In this document: positions 1 through 13,581 of the stretch, piece after piece
Position numbering within the stretch: the stretch's first letter is position 1
Layout of the letters: each line of letters begins with the position of its first letter
Origin: Alphaproteobacteria bacterium
Lineage (GTDB): Bacteria > Pseudomonadota > Alphaproteobacteria > JAJTHO01 > CANGYM01
Reading direction: 5' to 3'
Length of the DNA: 33,055 nt
NCBI GenBank assembly: GCA_947458145.1
Contig: CANGYM010000008.1
Location: forward strand, 1 to 33,055
Notes under the pieces: generated by a model
The model's database searches: none
Told to the model about the DNA's origin: nothing
What the model saw: the letters and a program-made list of their open reading frames with translations, nothing else
Translations under genes and position numbers: made by a program

Positions 1-148
1 CAGATATTTCCAGCGTATCGCAATCCGATCTTGACCACATCGCCAACATCATGAACAATACCCCACGAAAATGCCTCGGCTACAAAACCCCAAACGAGGC
101 CTTTTCCGCCGCTCTCAAAGGGTGTTGCACTTCGAGTTAGACACCGCC
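1..148 (+). mobile_element. Right end of an IS30-type insertion sequence
   Basis: The 3' end of a transposase frame is followed within a few bases by what looks like the element's terminal inverted repeat, around 118-148. The other end lies outside the window, so the exact boundary and any target duplication cannot be confirmed. The terminal sequence also supplies the stop codon of the converging gene at 137-709. Confidence 0.65.
3..140 (+). CDS. IS30-family transposase, C-terminal end (partial)
   Basis: An open frame enters from the left edge and ends with TAG at 138-140. The last 45 residues include an LDHIANIMNNTPRKCLGYKTP block, the usual C-terminal signature of IS30-family DDE transposases (N-x-x-P-R-K-x-L-x-[YF]-x-T-P), followed by a short alanine-rich helix. 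The DDE residues would lie upstream and cannot be seen, so activity cannot be judged. The gene runs into the 3' end of the opposite-strand gene at 137-709 and overlaps it by 4 bases. Family assignment is firm for so short a piece; the subgroup is not known. Confidence 0.8.
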   Translation, partial: DISSVSQSDLDHIANIMNNTPRKCLGYKTPNEAFSAALKGCCTSS

Positions 149-709
149 ATCACCTTCGGTAGCAGTATAATTAAAATTATTAAAATGACTCTTTAAAAAA
201 GCAATTCCATTATCAACAAGATCCTTCATAGGAAGAAAATTAGGTTGTCCCAAAGAAGCTTTGATAAACTTTTTATCTGTTTCAGCTTCCTTTTGTCGTA
301 CATCCCACTTCTTTTCGGCTTTTGCTCCCTCACCCGCCCAAAACATGGTATCCGATTTTGGGATATCGCGCAGCGTTCTCAGGGCATCTAATAGCACTTT
401 TCTATCCAACAACTGCCGCTCAGAAGCATATGCAACAAACGCCGCGGCGTCCGCAACCAAACGTGCGGCTGTCTCAATAAGACCAATGGCAGGTAAAATT
501 GGCCCTCCCAAATCAACAAAGGTTGTCTTCTGATCTTCTGTTCCCCTAACAAGGGAGCGAGCCTTCCCCAGCGCATTCTCAAAAGCGTCTCTTACTGGCT
601 TTCCCAAATCAACAATGGTTGCATTCTGATCTTCTGTTCCCGCAGCAAGGGAGCTAGCCTTCCCCAGCGCCTTCTCAAAAGGTGTTGGTGTTTTATTCTC
701 ATCCACCAT
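137..709 (-). CDS. Hypothetical protein with a 32-residue tandem repeat
   Basis: Not recognised. The 190-residue product begins with two head-to-tail 32-residue units (residues 11-42 and 43-74), each carrying F-E-x-A-L-G-K-A, then G-T-E-D-Q and V-D-L-G. A helical, alanine-rich stretch follows (about 75-125, the most hydrophobic part), then a charged lysine-rich segment. There is no signal peptide or clear membrane span. The ATG at 709 is preceded by a GAAGGGGA ribosome-binding site. The final codons (Gly-Gly-Val-stop) lie in the presumed IS30 terminal repeat, so the natural C-terminus may have been replaced by the insertion. The coding DNA is more AT-rich than its neighbours, which hints at foreign origin. 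A promoter is visible at 751-779. Function unknown. Confidence 0.7.
   Translation of the reverse strand: MVDENKTPTPFEKALGKASSLAAGTEDQNATIVDLGKPVRDAFENALGKARSLVRGTEDQKTTFVDLGGPILPAIGLIETAARLVADAAAFVAYASERQLLDRKVLLDALRTLRDIPKSDTMFWAGEGAKAEKKWDVRQKEAETDKKFIKASLGQPNFLPMKDLVDNGIAFLKSHFNNFNYTATEGDGGV
488..679 (-). repeat. Two tandem 96-bp units inside the hypothetical gene
   Basis: Positions 584-679 and 488-583 are adjacent, nearly identical 96-base copies in frame with the 137-709 gene, each coding for 32 residues. The high DNA-level similarity suggests a fairly recent in-frame duplication. Confidence 0.75.
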
Positions 710-858: not shown

Positions 859-1293
859 TTAGGACGCTGCCGCCAGCGGCGCCGCCTGTGACAGGGATTC
901 CTGCAAAGGCACCTGATTGTCGCGCAGCCATTCGGCCAGATCGGGGGCGTGCTTGCGATAGGCCTGCACGTCCAGCAATTCTTGGCGCAGGGACACTTCC
1001 CGCGCATCCAACGCGCTGCCGTTCAACCCAAAGGTCACGACGATGAACACCAACGCCATGGGCAGGGCGTCTTCGCCAAAGCATCCCTTGCGCATGGATT
1101 GAAAGACATACTGCGCGGCCAGATCGGCCAGATCACCAGCTTTGACTGTGGTTTCCCGCCAAGCAAGGTTTTGGACAGAATCCAAAACGGATTTCAGGCT
1201 TGTGGTGTCCTCGGGCAGGCTGCGCCCGTGGCTTTCCAAAAACCGCCCATACAAACGCAGCATCAGGGACACATCGAGTTTTTCAAAAGACAT
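859..1293 (-). CDS. Doc-like (Fic-fold) protein lacking the catalytic motif
   Basis: The 144-residue product follows an AbrB/MazE-type antitoxin gene by 16 bases. From memory, its layout matches phage P1 Doc: an N-terminal helix (LMLRLYGRFLESHGRSLPE), a central helix (DLADLAAQYVFQSMRKG), then a helix ending in ALVFIVVTFGLNG, which resembles the ALLFLRRNG of Doc. Where Doc has the Fic motif H-x-F-x-D-x-N-K-R-T-A-L, this protein reads K-G-C-F-G-E-D-A-L-P-M-A-L. The catalytic His, the Asn and the phosphate-binding Lys-Arg are missing, so kinase or AMPylation activity is unlikely. I chose the ATG at 1293 because GGGGAGGA precedes it closely; an in-frame start further upstream would run into the antitoxin gene. 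The fold call rests on hand comparison only. Confidence 0.6.
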   Translation of the reverse strand: MSFEKLDVSLMLRLYGRFLESHGRSLPEDTTSLKSVLDSVQNLAWRETTVKAGDLADLAAQYVFQSMRKGCFGEDALPMALVFIVVTFGLNGSALDAREVSLRQELLDVQAYRKHAPDLAEWLRDNQVPLQESLSQAAPLAAAS

Positions 1294-1309
1294 AAGATCC
1301 TCCCCCCCC

Positions 1310-1534
1310 TTAAGCGGCAACAGATAACACCGTGGGATAACGGCGCACAGCCGCATCATACAGCGTGACGTATTTTTGCCATGGGCCGTTGGCGCCGTGG
1401 ACTTCGATATGGTCCCCCACGATTTTGACGGTCAATTCCTCGCCCAAATCCCATCCCATCTGGTGGGCCATGGCGCGGGTCAGGGTCATGGCGTTGGTGT
1501 TGCCTTGGCGGCTGAGTTTTGTTTTATGTTCCAT
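1310..1534 (-). CDS. AbrB/MazE-type antitoxin-like DNA-binding protein
   Basis: A 74-residue protein with the swapped-hairpin SpoVT-AbrB pattern: L-S-R-Q-G-N-T-N-A-M-T-L-T near the N-terminus, then a conserved G-W-D-L-G-E-E-L-T-V-K-I and D-H-I-E-V-H. Members of this family bind DNA as dimers, often as antitoxins that repress their own operon. It is the first gene of a two-gene minus-strand unit with the Doc-like gene 16 bases downstream, the usual antitoxin-first order of AbrB-Doc pairs. The ATG at 1534 has an AGGAAA ribosome-binding site. The 57 bases up to the divergent PAP2 gene must hold both promoters; none is convincing. Confidence 0.75.
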   Translation of the reverse strand: MEHKTKLSRQGNTNAMTLTRAMAHQMGWDLGEELTVKIVGDHIEVHGANGPWQKYVTLYDAAVRRYPTVLSVAA

Positions 1535-1591
1535 TTGTGTTTTCCTGCGTTGGCGTTAGGATAATGGTGTTTTTCCTCTGGAGGCCCCCTT

Positions 1592-3399: not shown

Positions 3400-4422
3400 T
3401 TAGCCTTTCTCTGTTGGATACACATCACGACGCATGGACACGATGGGGTCCATCAACCCTACCATAGCCACCACATAAATCAATAAAGGAATAAACAAAA
3501 ACGCAGCATAAAACAAGGGGATAAGAAAGCGCCGTTTTTCCGCCATTCGGTGAAAAACCCCCGCCCCGTTGAAAAAAAATCCCCCCAAAGCCACCAGTAA
3601 GATATTGTTCAGCAAAGAAAAAACATCCTGCGGTAACGCCACAACATCCCGCGTGTGCAGCATCAAAACCAACCCCAAACCAAACACCACCCCCACCAAC
3701 CAGCGGGGCAAGCGGAACCAACCCATTTTCATCAGGGGCGGGGACGTGCGGGTGATTTTGGACCAAAAACGCACCGCCACCACGGCATTGATACAAAATC
3801 CCACCAACCACCCCAATGCCGAAAGGCCCGGCACGGCCGCCGCCAACTGGGCCGCAACATCGGGGCCCCAAGCTTGCTGTAACACCTTCAGGGTTTTGGG
3901 ATCGGCGTCCCCCACGGATTTCAGGGTTTCCTCTAAAATGGCCTGAACCGCCTGAGCATCCAACAGGGACGTCATGACCACAGCCAAAACCATGGCATAC
4001 AGCGTCAGGCTGCCCGTGACAGCCCCCTGCATCACCACGGGGGCCGGCAGATTCAGCGGCGAGGCGCCCCCCCGCAGGTACTGAGGAATGGTATAGGCCA
4101 AATGCACAAAAAAAGCCGCTGGCACCGTGTTTTCCACAAAAAACAACACCGATCCATGGGCTGTGGGCACATCCGGCAGCGCAAGGCCCCCACTTTGGGC
4201 CAAAGCCACCCCCAAAGCCCCCAAAAGGCCCGCCCCCAAACCATAAACCCAGCCATACACCAATCCGCACACCAACAGCGGCAAGGCATCAAAAAAAGAA
4301 AACGCCACCGCAGGCAACGCCGGCAGAAACGACGGCGATACAAAAAATAACGCGGAGAGCACCGCACACACCCCCATGGCAACCATGGCACCAGAATGAC
4401 GAAAAGGCAGGGCGGGGGTCAT
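3400..4422 (-). CDS. DUF2232 multi-spanning membrane protein
   Basis: A 340-residue, strongly hydrophobic protein with about eight spans: an N-terminal pair (about 12-60), a span with glycine-rich G-L-G-A-G-L-L-G-A-L-G, spans near 95-110 and 128-150, one near 195-220, one near 240-258, and a C-terminal pair (about 270-325). A soluble loop (about 155-195) separates the halves. A DUF2232 protein between rpsR and rplI is a recurrent alphaproteobacterial arrangement; the family resembles S-component-like membrane proteins and its role is not known. It ends 7 bases before rplI. A 332-base gap containing a structured repeat separates it from rpsR, unusual inside an operon. Confidence 0.8.
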   Translation of the reverse strand: MTPALPFRHSGAMVAMGVCAVLSALFFVSPSFLPALPAVAFSFFDALPLLVCGLVYGWVYGLGAGLLGALGVALAQSGGLALPDVPTAHGSVLFFVENTVPAAFFVHLAYTIPQYLRGGASPLNLPAPVVMQGAVTGSLTLYAMVLAVVMTSLLDAQAVQAILEETLKSVGDADPKTLKVLQQAWGPDVAAQLAAAVPGLSALGWLVGFCINAVVAVRFWSKITRTSPPLMKMGWFRLPRWLVGVVFGLGLVLMLHTRDVVALPQDVFSLLNNILLVALGGFFFNGAGVFHRMAEKRRFLIPLFYAAFLFIPLLIYVVAMVGLMDPIVSMRRDVYPTEKG

Positions 4423-4489
4423 GGCACGATCAGAGTTTTTCTTTTGTTTTCATGCAGAAATCCAAAGGTCGGGGGGAAGACTGCGGGGC

Positions 4490-4633
4490 GGGACGGTTTT
4501 CTTTTGACGTCAAGGGGCGAGGCGGGAAAAATACCGGACCGAAGACCGCGGCGCGGGCTGAGGGAGGATGATTTTTTCTGACTCGGCGCAGCGCACCCCT
4601 TGATGTCAAAAGAAAAGTGGGGGGGTGGGGAGC
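4490..4633 (+). repeat. Structured intergenic repeat, copy 1
   Basis: This 144-base element fills much of the gap between rpsR and the DUF2232 gene. A core of 94 bases runs from TCAAGGGG (4510-4517) to its inverse CCCCTTGA (4596-4603). Outside the core TTTTCTTTTGACG pairs with TGTCAAAAGAAAA, giving a stem of about 21 bp with one G-U-type pair. Inside, AAAAATACCG on the left and GATGATTTTTTC on the right are shared with copy 2 at 13366-13509. Flanking GGGACGG and GGGGAGC are shared as well. No credible gene lies in the rest of 4423-4754. Confidence 0.75.
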
Positions 4634-4754
4634 AGGCTTCGGAGAGCCAAGGGCAAGCCCCGAAACCCTCATACCCTTTCAAAGGAAAAGCCATGAGGCG
4701 CACGGGAAATCTCTCTGATCGGTTGTCTCTCGCCAAGGGCTCCCAAAAAATGGC

Positions 4755-12088: not shown

Positions 12089-13150
12089 ATGCCCCTTGAT
12101 CTTTACCACGACCAGATTGCCAAAGGTGTTTTATTCCCCAATGCGGACCAAAAGCGCGTGGTGGAGCATTTTGCGCGTCTTTGTGATGAGATTCAGGCTT
12201 ACTTGGCCAAACAGCGCCGCTATGCCCGTTGGCAATTCTGGAAAAAGCGTCCCCTGCCCCCACGGGGGGTTTATGTGGTGGGCGATGTGGGAACGGGCAA
12301 AACCGCCATGATGGATTTGTTTTGCCAGTCTTTGCCCAAAAAAACCGTTTACCGCCAGCATTTTCATGCTTTTATGCATGATATTCATGATCGGCTGCGT
12401 CGTTTATCCGATCAAAAAGACCCGCTGAAAATCGTGGCCCAATCTTGGGAAAAGCCGATTGTGTGTTTGGATGAATTTCTGGTGCAGGACATTGCCGATG
12501 CCATGATTTTAAAGGAGCTGTTTTCCCATTTGTTTCATAGGGGATTGGTTCTGATCACCACATCCAACACCCTGCCCGAAGACCTGTATAAACATGGGTT
12601 GCAGCGGGATCGTTTTTTGCCCTTCATCCCCCTGCTGCAGGCGCATTGTCAGGTTTTATCCCTGAATCATGATCAGGATTACCGCCTGCGCCATGGGACC
12701 CAGATGGGGGCGCATTATTTATACCCCCTCACCGAAGAGACACAGGCCACCTTTGCCAAAACGTTTGAGGCCGCCATCGGTCCTGATCTGGCCACCGCCG
12801 CCGTTGTGTTTGGGGAAGAGCGGTCGCTGATTCTGGAAAAGGCCTCCCCCCGCGTGGCGTGGACGACATTTCAGAATCTGTGCGGGGAACCCCGCGGGAC
12901 GCGGGATTATCAGCGTTTGTGCGATGCCTTTGAACATATCTTCATCGATCAAGTCCCCTGTATGAGCGATCAAGATCTGGATCAGGTCAAACGTTTGATT
13001 TTGCTGATTGATTGCCTGTATGATCGGGGCATCACCCTGACCGTGCGGGCAGCGGCGGCCCCCCGTTTGCTGTATCAGGGCACATTGCTGGCCAAAGACT
13101 TTGCCCGCACCGCATCCCGCCTGATTGAAATGGCGCATCCCAAACGGTGA
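12089..13150 (+). CDS. zapE: ZapE/AFG1-like AAA ATPase
   Basis: A 353-residue AFG1-family P-loop ATPase. Walker A G-D-V-G-T-G-K-T lies at 65-72, followed by H-F-H-A-F-M-H-D-I-H, Walker B I-V-C-L-D-E-F at 124-130, a T-T-S-N-T sensor at 158-161 and L-Q-R-D-R-F-L-P-F-I at 171-180, all family signatures. In E. coli ZapE associates with the division ring; mitochondrial Afg1 aids respiratory-complex turnover. I prefer the ATG at 12089, with AAGGG upstream and P-L-D-L-Y-H-D as first residues; a start at 12047 would add 14 atypical residues. Divergent from glmS. The gap that follows (13151-13581) holds no gene but two structured repeats. Confidence 0.9.
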   Translation: MPLDLYHDQIAKGVLFPNADQKRVVEHFARLCDEIQAYLAKQRRYARWQFWKKRPLPPRGVYVVGDVGTGKTAMMDLFCQSLPKKTVYRQHFHAFMHDIHDRLRRLSDQKDPLKIVAQSWEKPIVCLDEFLVQDIADAMILKELFSHLFHRGLVLITTSNTLPEDLYKHGLQRDRFLPFIPLLQAHCQVLSLNHDQDYRLRHGTQMGAHYLYPLTEETQATFAKTFEAAIGPDLATAAVVFGEERSLILEKASPRVAWTTFQNLCGEPRGTRDYQRLCDAFEHIFIDQVPCMSDQDLDQVKRLILLIDCLYDRGITLTVRAAAAPRLLYQGTLLAKDFARTASRLIEMAHPKR

Positions 13151-13209
13151 GGGGGGAATCAGGTCAGGGCTGTTCCCTTCAAAATCATAGTGAAAAGGCG
13201 GGGTCGGGG

Positions 13210-13335
13210 CAGCAGGATTTGTCCCTCGGGTCAAGGGCGAGACCCGAAAAAAGTGGCCGAAGGCCAAGCCCCGCAGGGGCGGCTTTTTTGGTGCGAGGCG
13301 AAGCGCACCCTTGAGGCGGGGGGCAAATTCTGCTG
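13210..13335 (+). repeat. Structured intergenic repeat, copy 3 (divergent)
   Basis: The core runs from TCAAGGG (13231-13237) to CCCTTGA (13308-13314), 84 bases. After two G-G mismatches the outer arms pair over about 19 positions, from CAGCAG (13210-13215) to CTGCTG (13330-13335). The inner right arm holds a small GTGCG/CGCAC hairpin, and GCGCACCC before the closing arm is shared with copy 1. The arm sequences differ from copies 1 and 2, but the pairing is kept. Confidence 0.7.
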
Positions 13336-13365
13336 GGTGGGAGCCTTTTCCTCGGGGGAGCACGC

Positions 13366-13509
13366 GGCTCCCGCCCCCACACTTCTCTTTGGGCCTCAAG
13401 GGGTCCGCTACGCCGGAGCGAAAAAAATCATCCTCGCCCGCCGCTCTCCGAGCGCCGGCCTGCGGTATTTTTTCCGCCCCGCCCCTTGACCCCCAAAGAC
13501 AACCGTCCC
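13366..13509 (-). repeat. Structured intergenic repeat, copy 2 (inverted)
   Basis: Read on the minus strand this has the same length as copy 1 (144 bases overall, 94-base core between 13396-13403 and 13482-13489) and the same landmarks in order: GGGACGG, TCAAGGGGCG, AAAAAATACCG, GAGGATGATTTTTT, AGCG, ACCCCTTGA, AAGTG, GGGAGC. The central 25 bases are different. It lies 30 bases from copy 3, in opposite orientation. Confidence 0.75.
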
Positions 13510-13581
13510 ACCCCGCCGCGTTTTTGAAACCAATAAAAAACACATTACCCCCCTTAAAATACAATATAAAGGAGAATTTTT

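Follow-up and report, generated by a model that had tools for sequence, protein, structure and literature searches.

A Doc-derived protein with an erased Fic motif, retained beside an AbrB-fold partner in an alphaproteobacterium

In this work, we analyzed a pair of adjacent genes in a stretch of 33,055 nucleotides (hereafter, the window) from an alphaproteobacterium; the window is contig 8 (CANGYM010000008.1) of a 1.41-Mb genome assembled in 111 contigs. The pair encodes a 74-residue DNA-binding protein of the AbrB/MazE fold and a 144-residue protein, here called pseudo-Doc, which derives from the Doc toxins but lacks their Fic catalytic motif. The locus would represent an AbrB-Doc type II toxin-antitoxin (TA) module in which the catalysis of the toxin was lost and the module retained. 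Because both genes are under selection and the motif appears to have been lost independently in other alphaproteobacteria, the former toxin is now probably the partner of a gene regulator rather than a poison. The Doc descent, fold, motif loss, selection, gene pairing and recurrence are computed results.

Results

Descent of the 144-residue protein from Doc

Conventional searches gave little indication of the origin of this protein: no Fic or Doc match was found in Pfam or NCBIfam at E-values up to 10, well short of the family cut-off, and a sequence search of the PDB returned no match. A weak match to Doc-like toxins was obtained in PHROGs (phrog_577, E=0.0093), and, among other alphaproteobacteria, its weak relatives proved to be Docs with an intact motif, several of them adjoining an AbrB gene. 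No relative turned up when phages and viral contigs were searched with the single sequence, which gave no sign of a phage-borne family. One further candidate (L035, in genome G074) was rejected as AT-rich non-coding sequence containing a stop.

Profile-profile comparison with hhalign was far more informative. The two available orthologues aligned with 14 intact Docs with a probability of 97.2% over 123 columns and a score of 67.2, whereas none of 200 column-shuffled queries exceeded 20.8 and the reversed query scored 14.9. The homology to Doc thus extends along the full length of the protein. The earlier note on this DNA, made from the letters alone, had proposed structure prediction and a structural search against Doc, and we carried these out with two AlphaFold2 models. 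Model 1 was built from an alignment of the two orthologues only and is therefore free of Doc bias; it is modest (predicted local distance difference test, pLDDT, 63), and P1 Doc was its best PDB match, with Doc chains in four of the top five places, at an E-value of about 0.5 that makes the result suggestive only. Model 2 included 60 viral Docs in the alignment, so it is biased toward Doc; it reached a pLDDT of 89.7 and a predicted template modelling (TM) score of 0.83, and matched DocH66Y (3dd7; TM 0.72/0.83, E=1.3e-3), followed by other Doc/Fic structures. Thus, a Fic/Doc helical fold is predicted for pseudo-Doc, and P1 Doc was the top PDB match with both alignments, even when no Doc had been aligned; the unrelated fold that the earlier note named as a refutation was not obtained.

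The silence of Pfam and NCBIfam is what one would see if the second protein were unrelated to Doc and resembled it by chance, but a profile-profile score over threefold higher than that of the best shuffled query, together with an independent match of the predicted fold and the independent homology of its partner, makes this extremely improbable. On the strength of the profile-profile comparison, the two models and the gene pairing, we consider it very probable that the 144-residue protein is a Doc descendant that has lost Fic catalysis.

Erasure of the Fic motif

In the profile alignment, R68-K69-G70-C71-F72-G73-E74-D75-A76-L77-P78 stands opposite R-N-H-P-F-V-D-G-N-K-R. The Fic motif HxFx(D/E)(G/A)N(K/G)R, with its catalytic His, is accordingly absent from the GCFGEDALP of pseudo-Doc: Gly70 stands in place of His, Glu74 of Asp, Asp75 of Gly, Ala76 of Asn, Leu77 of Lys and Pro78 of Arg, and Phe alone is kept. 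The earlier note had given the correct motif letters and recognized the erasure, although its register was one residue out: the change of His to Lys that it implied is rejected by the alignment, in which His faces Gly70, and K69 faces the Asn preceding His. In the Fic loop, His acts as the general base, the start of the next helix binds phosphate and Arg contacts the phosphate. Given these known roles, the sequence makes nucleotide transfer by pseudo-Doc very unlikely. In P1 Doc, a change of the His alone abolishes toxicity (PMC2686095).

Four other Fic proteins encoded in the same 1.4-Mb genome (L001-L004, on contigs 98, 21, 38 and 26) have an intact HPFx(D/E)GNGR motif; therefore, the loss is specific to the AbrB/pseudo-Doc locus. 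An intact Doc was sought in both genomes of the genus and none was found.

The AbrB partner

The 74-residue protein matched the NCBIfam MazE family NF052488 below its cut-off (E=3.3e-4) and TIGR02609 doc_partner over its full length with 13.2 bits (E=0.09), short of the curated cut-off of 55.9 bits. Compared by hhalign with the AbrB partners of intact Docs, it gave a probability of 85% and a score of 31.9 versus a shuffled maximum of 18.1, with 13% identity to the partners of active Docs in that alignment. Its best named relatives are plasmid-borne AbrB genes of Azospirillum located directly upstream of annotated death-on-curing toxins (Docs), and in one genome (G347) the AbrB-only and Doc-only profiles independently matched the same AbrB-Doc locus. 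PDB sequence matches of the AbrB protein were short alpha-crystallin stretches only and were judged to be chance. The abrB gene of the window lies directly upstream of a Doc-derived gene, not a canonical doc. The homology of AbrB, the gene order and the Doc descent of the second protein together uphold the AbrB-Doc module proposed in the earlier note.

Purifying selection on both genes

The genus contains one other sequenced genome (G001, about 1.4 Mb), which yielded a single orthologue pair: the same two genes, syntenic and beside the PAP2-family gene, with 81% identity for pseudo-Doc and 92% for AbrB. Residues 67-80 of pseudo-Doc show no amino-acid change between the two species, the N-terminal DNA-binding half of AbrB is identical at 47/47 positions, and the 57-bp divergent promoter region is identical at 51/57 bases (89%), with synonymous sites diverged by 0.4-0.8. 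The ratio of non-synonymous to synonymous substitution rates (dN/dS) was 0.15 for pseudo-Doc (bootstrap 95% interval 0.09-0.26; dS about 0.8), similar to the value of the PAP2 neighbour (0.145), and 0.09 for AbrB. Neither species' pseudo-Doc gene contains a stop or a frameshift. When neutral evolution was simulated with 0.3-0.8 substitutions per site, a stop-free frame survived in 4.4% to 0.3% of the runs, and identity was at most 67%, compared with the 81% observed. Pseudo-Doc and its AbrB partner are under purifying selection.

Inactivation of the toxin is a common first step in the loss of a TA system, and the pair might for this reason be a dying remnant whose frame is not yet broken. Such plain decay is very improbable in view of (i) a dN/dS of 0.15 at a dS of about 0.8 without a stop or frameshift in two species, (ii) an intact ribosome-binding site and a conserved promoter region, and (iii) the persistence of a motif-less state in eight species of another genus, described next. 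The earlier note had argued from the intact frame and ribosome-binding site that this was not plain decay, and had suggested that homologues be examined for conservation of the changed motif; since the sister orthologue keeps the altered motif under purifying selection, the change is not local decay.

Recurrence in other alphaproteobacteria

The AbrB profile was searched across 385 alphaproteobacterial genomes and matched two genomes of another genus (g43), where a motif-less Doc-like gene comes after an AbrB gene that adjoins rho. The TIGR01550 and TIGR02609 matches of this locus are both below cut-off, and its motif-less Docs aligned with intact Docs with a profile-profile probability of 99.4%. 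An AbrB-Doc locus or a relative of it is present in 12/26 genomes of the family of g43; four have intact Docs only and eight have an altered Doc, one of these alongside an intact copy. The altered motifs read QRPFSHGNRR, EKPFAKGNKR, EKPFAVGNIR, EKPFPENNRR, EKPASSGNTA, EKPLSIGNPH, EQPASKGNAS and EQPAPKGNAS. The His is lost in all eight (replaced by Arg, Lys or Gln), while Asp, Lys, Arg and Phe are variably lost, down to complete loss of the motif. AbrB is far better conserved than pseudo-Doc in this genus as well.

The eight pseudo-Doc species of g43 form a single clade (ultrafast bootstrap 100) nested among intact Docs. The locus (L159-L169; for example L153, 1483-2130, and L168, 1498-2147) has a fixed place, with rho on one side and a quinone-oxidoreductase-like gene on the other. 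Where rho is present on the locus, pseudo-Doc pairs are always downstream of it and co-directional, whereas intact rho-linked pairs occupy the same slot facing rho; the flip of the locus maps to the same branch as the loss of the catalytic His. This genus offers a graded natural series in the same chromosomal slot, which starts with an intact HPFxDGNKR, passes through motifs that lack only His and Asp, and ends with motifs lost altogether; it could be used to test directly in which order the residues went and what function was retained.

A third case was found in genome G231 (L024, 1130-1749), where AbrB is followed by a Doc with NRPFTGGNAR, in which His, Asp and Lys are changed; this Doc is still above the Pfam Fic cut-off and would be a third, separate loss. 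Outside g43, 47 of the 48 Docs sampled are intact, which makes the losses look independent. The sensitivity of our searches for Docs without the motif is weak, so that their count is a lower bound. That the pseudo-Doc of the window and those of g43 go back to one origin was considered and is unsupported, with a weak hhalign comparison (probability 16%) and no grouping in the tree. Since the two do not group, independent losses in the window lineage and g43 are the simpler reading, albeit an uncertain one, as the window pair stands on a long separate branch whose placement is uncertain. We tentatively propose, at slightly less than even confidence, that AbrB and pseudo-Doc form a regulatory module that recurs: in three or more separate alphaproteobacterial lineages Doc would have lost its catalytic site, His first, and been kept on the chromosome as a fixed part of an AbrB regulator.

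Discussion

Our favoured explanation, to which we give about even chances, is that a non-toxic pseudo-Doc has been kept as the partner of AbrB, most likely as a co-repressor. Doc acts as a co-repressor or derepressor of its own operon by bridging Phd dimers (PMC4803016), and the motif-His mutant Doc H66Y is non-toxic and was nevertheless crystallised bound to Phd (PMC2686095). By analogy, pseudo-Doc would carry out no nucleotide or phosphate transfer and would not be toxic, but may still bind its AbrB partner through the C-terminal part of the latter; the complex would then bind the 57-bp divergent promoter, with pseudo-Doc as a co-repressor or bridging subunit tuning AbrB. The putative targets are the operon of the pair itself and, possibly, the PAP2 gene that is read divergently from it. 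The regulatory half of the conditional cooperativity of Phd-Doc would thus persist without the poison half, and, if selection acts on the regulatory half, one would expect catalysis to be lost and both genes to be retained.

Several points weigh against this explanation. The genus is known from two species only, hence the selection test rests on a single pair. A palindromic operator was sought in the divergent promoter region (1535-1591) and no clear one was found. The C-terminus of AbrB, the expected toxin-binding part, has also diverged from the canonical AbrB-Doc partners. Finally, non-toxicity, DNA binding, the AbrB-pseudo-Doc complex and regulation are all inferred.

Two other roles can be weighed against the same data. 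The selected function might lie on the antitoxin side, with AbrB countering incoming AbrB-Doc modules in the manner of an anti-addiction or decoy antitoxin, and pseudo-Doc doing no more than stabilizing AbrB or being carried as a passive passenger. The better conservation of AbrB than of pseudo-Doc, both here (92% versus 81%) and in g43, and the intact AbrB-Doc of a related genome of the same order (G003) fit this role, which we nonetheless regard as unlikely: pseudo-Doc is itself under purifying selection, its former active-site loop included, the 13% identity of AbrB to active partners makes cross-neutralization doubtful, and neither genome of the genus yielded an intact Doc.

Alternatively, the rebuilt loop G-C-F-G-E-D could form a different active site in a still working TA module with altered chemistry. 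Conservation of the altered loop between the two species would agree with it, as would the Campylobacter fetus Fic2 protein, which has a degenerate motif and is still toxic (PMC5651007), and the effector AvrB, which has a Fido fold without the motif and yet binds ADP (PMC2686095). However, Fic2 retains its His, and its H184A mutation abolishes toxicity (PMC5651007), whereas pseudo-Doc lacks His, Asn, Lys and Arg, and the helix start that should bind phosphate carries Glu, Asp and Pro. Furthermore, the loop of g43 is free to vary among species, which fits a lost site better than a new one. We therefore hold a surviving enzyme to be distinctly unlikely. The earlier note had listed a co-repressor, an antitoxin decoy and a protein with another activity; these options remain a matter of inference, and the co-repressor is the one we favour.

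Comparison with known systems helps to place the pair. It resembles AbrB-Doc and Phd-Doc modules (TIGR01550 DOC_P1 plus TIGR02609 doc_partner) in gene order, sizes, close spacing, an upstream AbrB/MazE fold and a predicted Fic/Doc fold, and differs from them in its erased motif, in both proteins scoring under the curated cut-offs and in the toxicity, which from the sequence is not expected. P1 DocH66Y (PDB 3dd7), the best structural match of the pseudo-Doc model, likewise has a Doc fold without the catalytic His, but it is a laboratory point mutant, whereas in pseudo-Doc the whole motif was replaced in nature. MtvTA (PMC11826091), an inactive TA pair whose antitoxin has the AbrB/MazE fold, regulates transcription and offers a parallel for the role suggested here; in contrast, MtvT is not described in that paper as Fic/Doc, MtvT/MtvA is borne on the Pseudomonas aeruginosa plasmid pPAD8, and its regulation has been demonstrated. 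Fic2 of C. fetus shares with pseudo-Doc membership of a Fic-family TA system and a non-canonical motif; unlike pseudo-Doc it keeps the catalytic His, is toxic and has another Fic protein as partner instead of AbrB (PMC5651007). AvrB also has a Fic/Doc-type fold without the Fic motif, but it is secreted, acts as a plant effector, carries an inserted domain and is not part of a TA-derived pair (PMC2686095).

Since both the motif and the family score fail, the AbrB-paired protein should be regarded as a Doc-derived pseudo-toxin and not be filed as a Doc toxin. We found no description of an AbrB-paired Doc without the motif in the open-access literature searched, which is limited evidence of novelty. 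TA modules are usually judged by toxin activity, and their fate after domestication is debated; the pair may represent a natural separation of function, in which the catalytic half of Doc is gone and the antitoxin-binding, potentially regulatory half is selected. Annotation of Fic/Doc proteins by motif or by hidden Markov model cut-off overlooks such proteins.

Layout of the locus

The features of the locus are collected in Table 1; the coordinates, strand and frames given for both genes in the earlier note, and the intact Shine-Dalgarno sequence, agree with it. The spacer between abrB and the pseudo-Doc gene is 16 nucleotides long (GGGGGGGGAGGATCTT) and carries a good Shine-Dalgarno sequence; it is 25 nucleotides long in the sister species, where the arrangement of the PAP2 gene beside the pair is also conserved (L006). 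CCTAACGCCAA is confined to the AbrB/pseudo-Doc locus in both genomes of the genus and therefore no regulon motif was found. Further past the stem-loop downstream of the pseudo-Doc gene, a T run is present on the minus strand.

Table 1. Features of the AbrB/pseudo-Doc locus in the window
Feature	Positions	Strand	Basis
AbrB/MazE-fold DNA-binding protein, antitoxin homologue, 74 residues	1310-1534	minus	MazE and doc_partner matches below cut-off; hhalign; Azospirillum relatives
Pseudo-Doc, Doc-derived, Fic motif erased, 144 residues	859-1293	minus	phrog_577; hhalign; AlphaFold2 and Foldseek
Former Fic motif site, residues 70-78, GCFGEDALP opposite HPFVDGNKR	1060-1086	minus	alignments; unchanged in sister species
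abrB/pseudo-Doc spacer; Shine-Dalgarno of the pseudo-Doc gene, GGGGAGG	1294-1309	minus	sequence
Divergent promoter region, 57 bp, between abrB (minus) and PAP2 gene (plus); candidate operator region	1535-1591		sequence; conservation in sister species
PAP2-family phosphatase, divergent neighbour, possible target	1592-2323	plus	PF01569, E=1.4e-13
G+C-rich stem-loop just 3' of the pseudo-Doc stop, probable transcription terminator	810-839	scored on plus strand	

The pair is adjoined by an open reading frame of 190 residues (137-709, minus strand) with no Pfam or NCBIfam match, which contains an internal 86-nucleotide direct repeat (500-585 and 596-681, 88% identical). Near the pair, at the contig edge (1-140), the C-terminal end of an IS30-like transposase was read by eye. 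Low-complexity peptides similar to one another (of the KIPQ...EDDFF / ASPLDVKRK type) are encoded at 4419-4736 and 12719-13564 of the window, both on the minus strand, and at 1942-2146 of L006; their recurrence in unrelated stretches suggests a dispersed G+C-rich repeat element in the genus.
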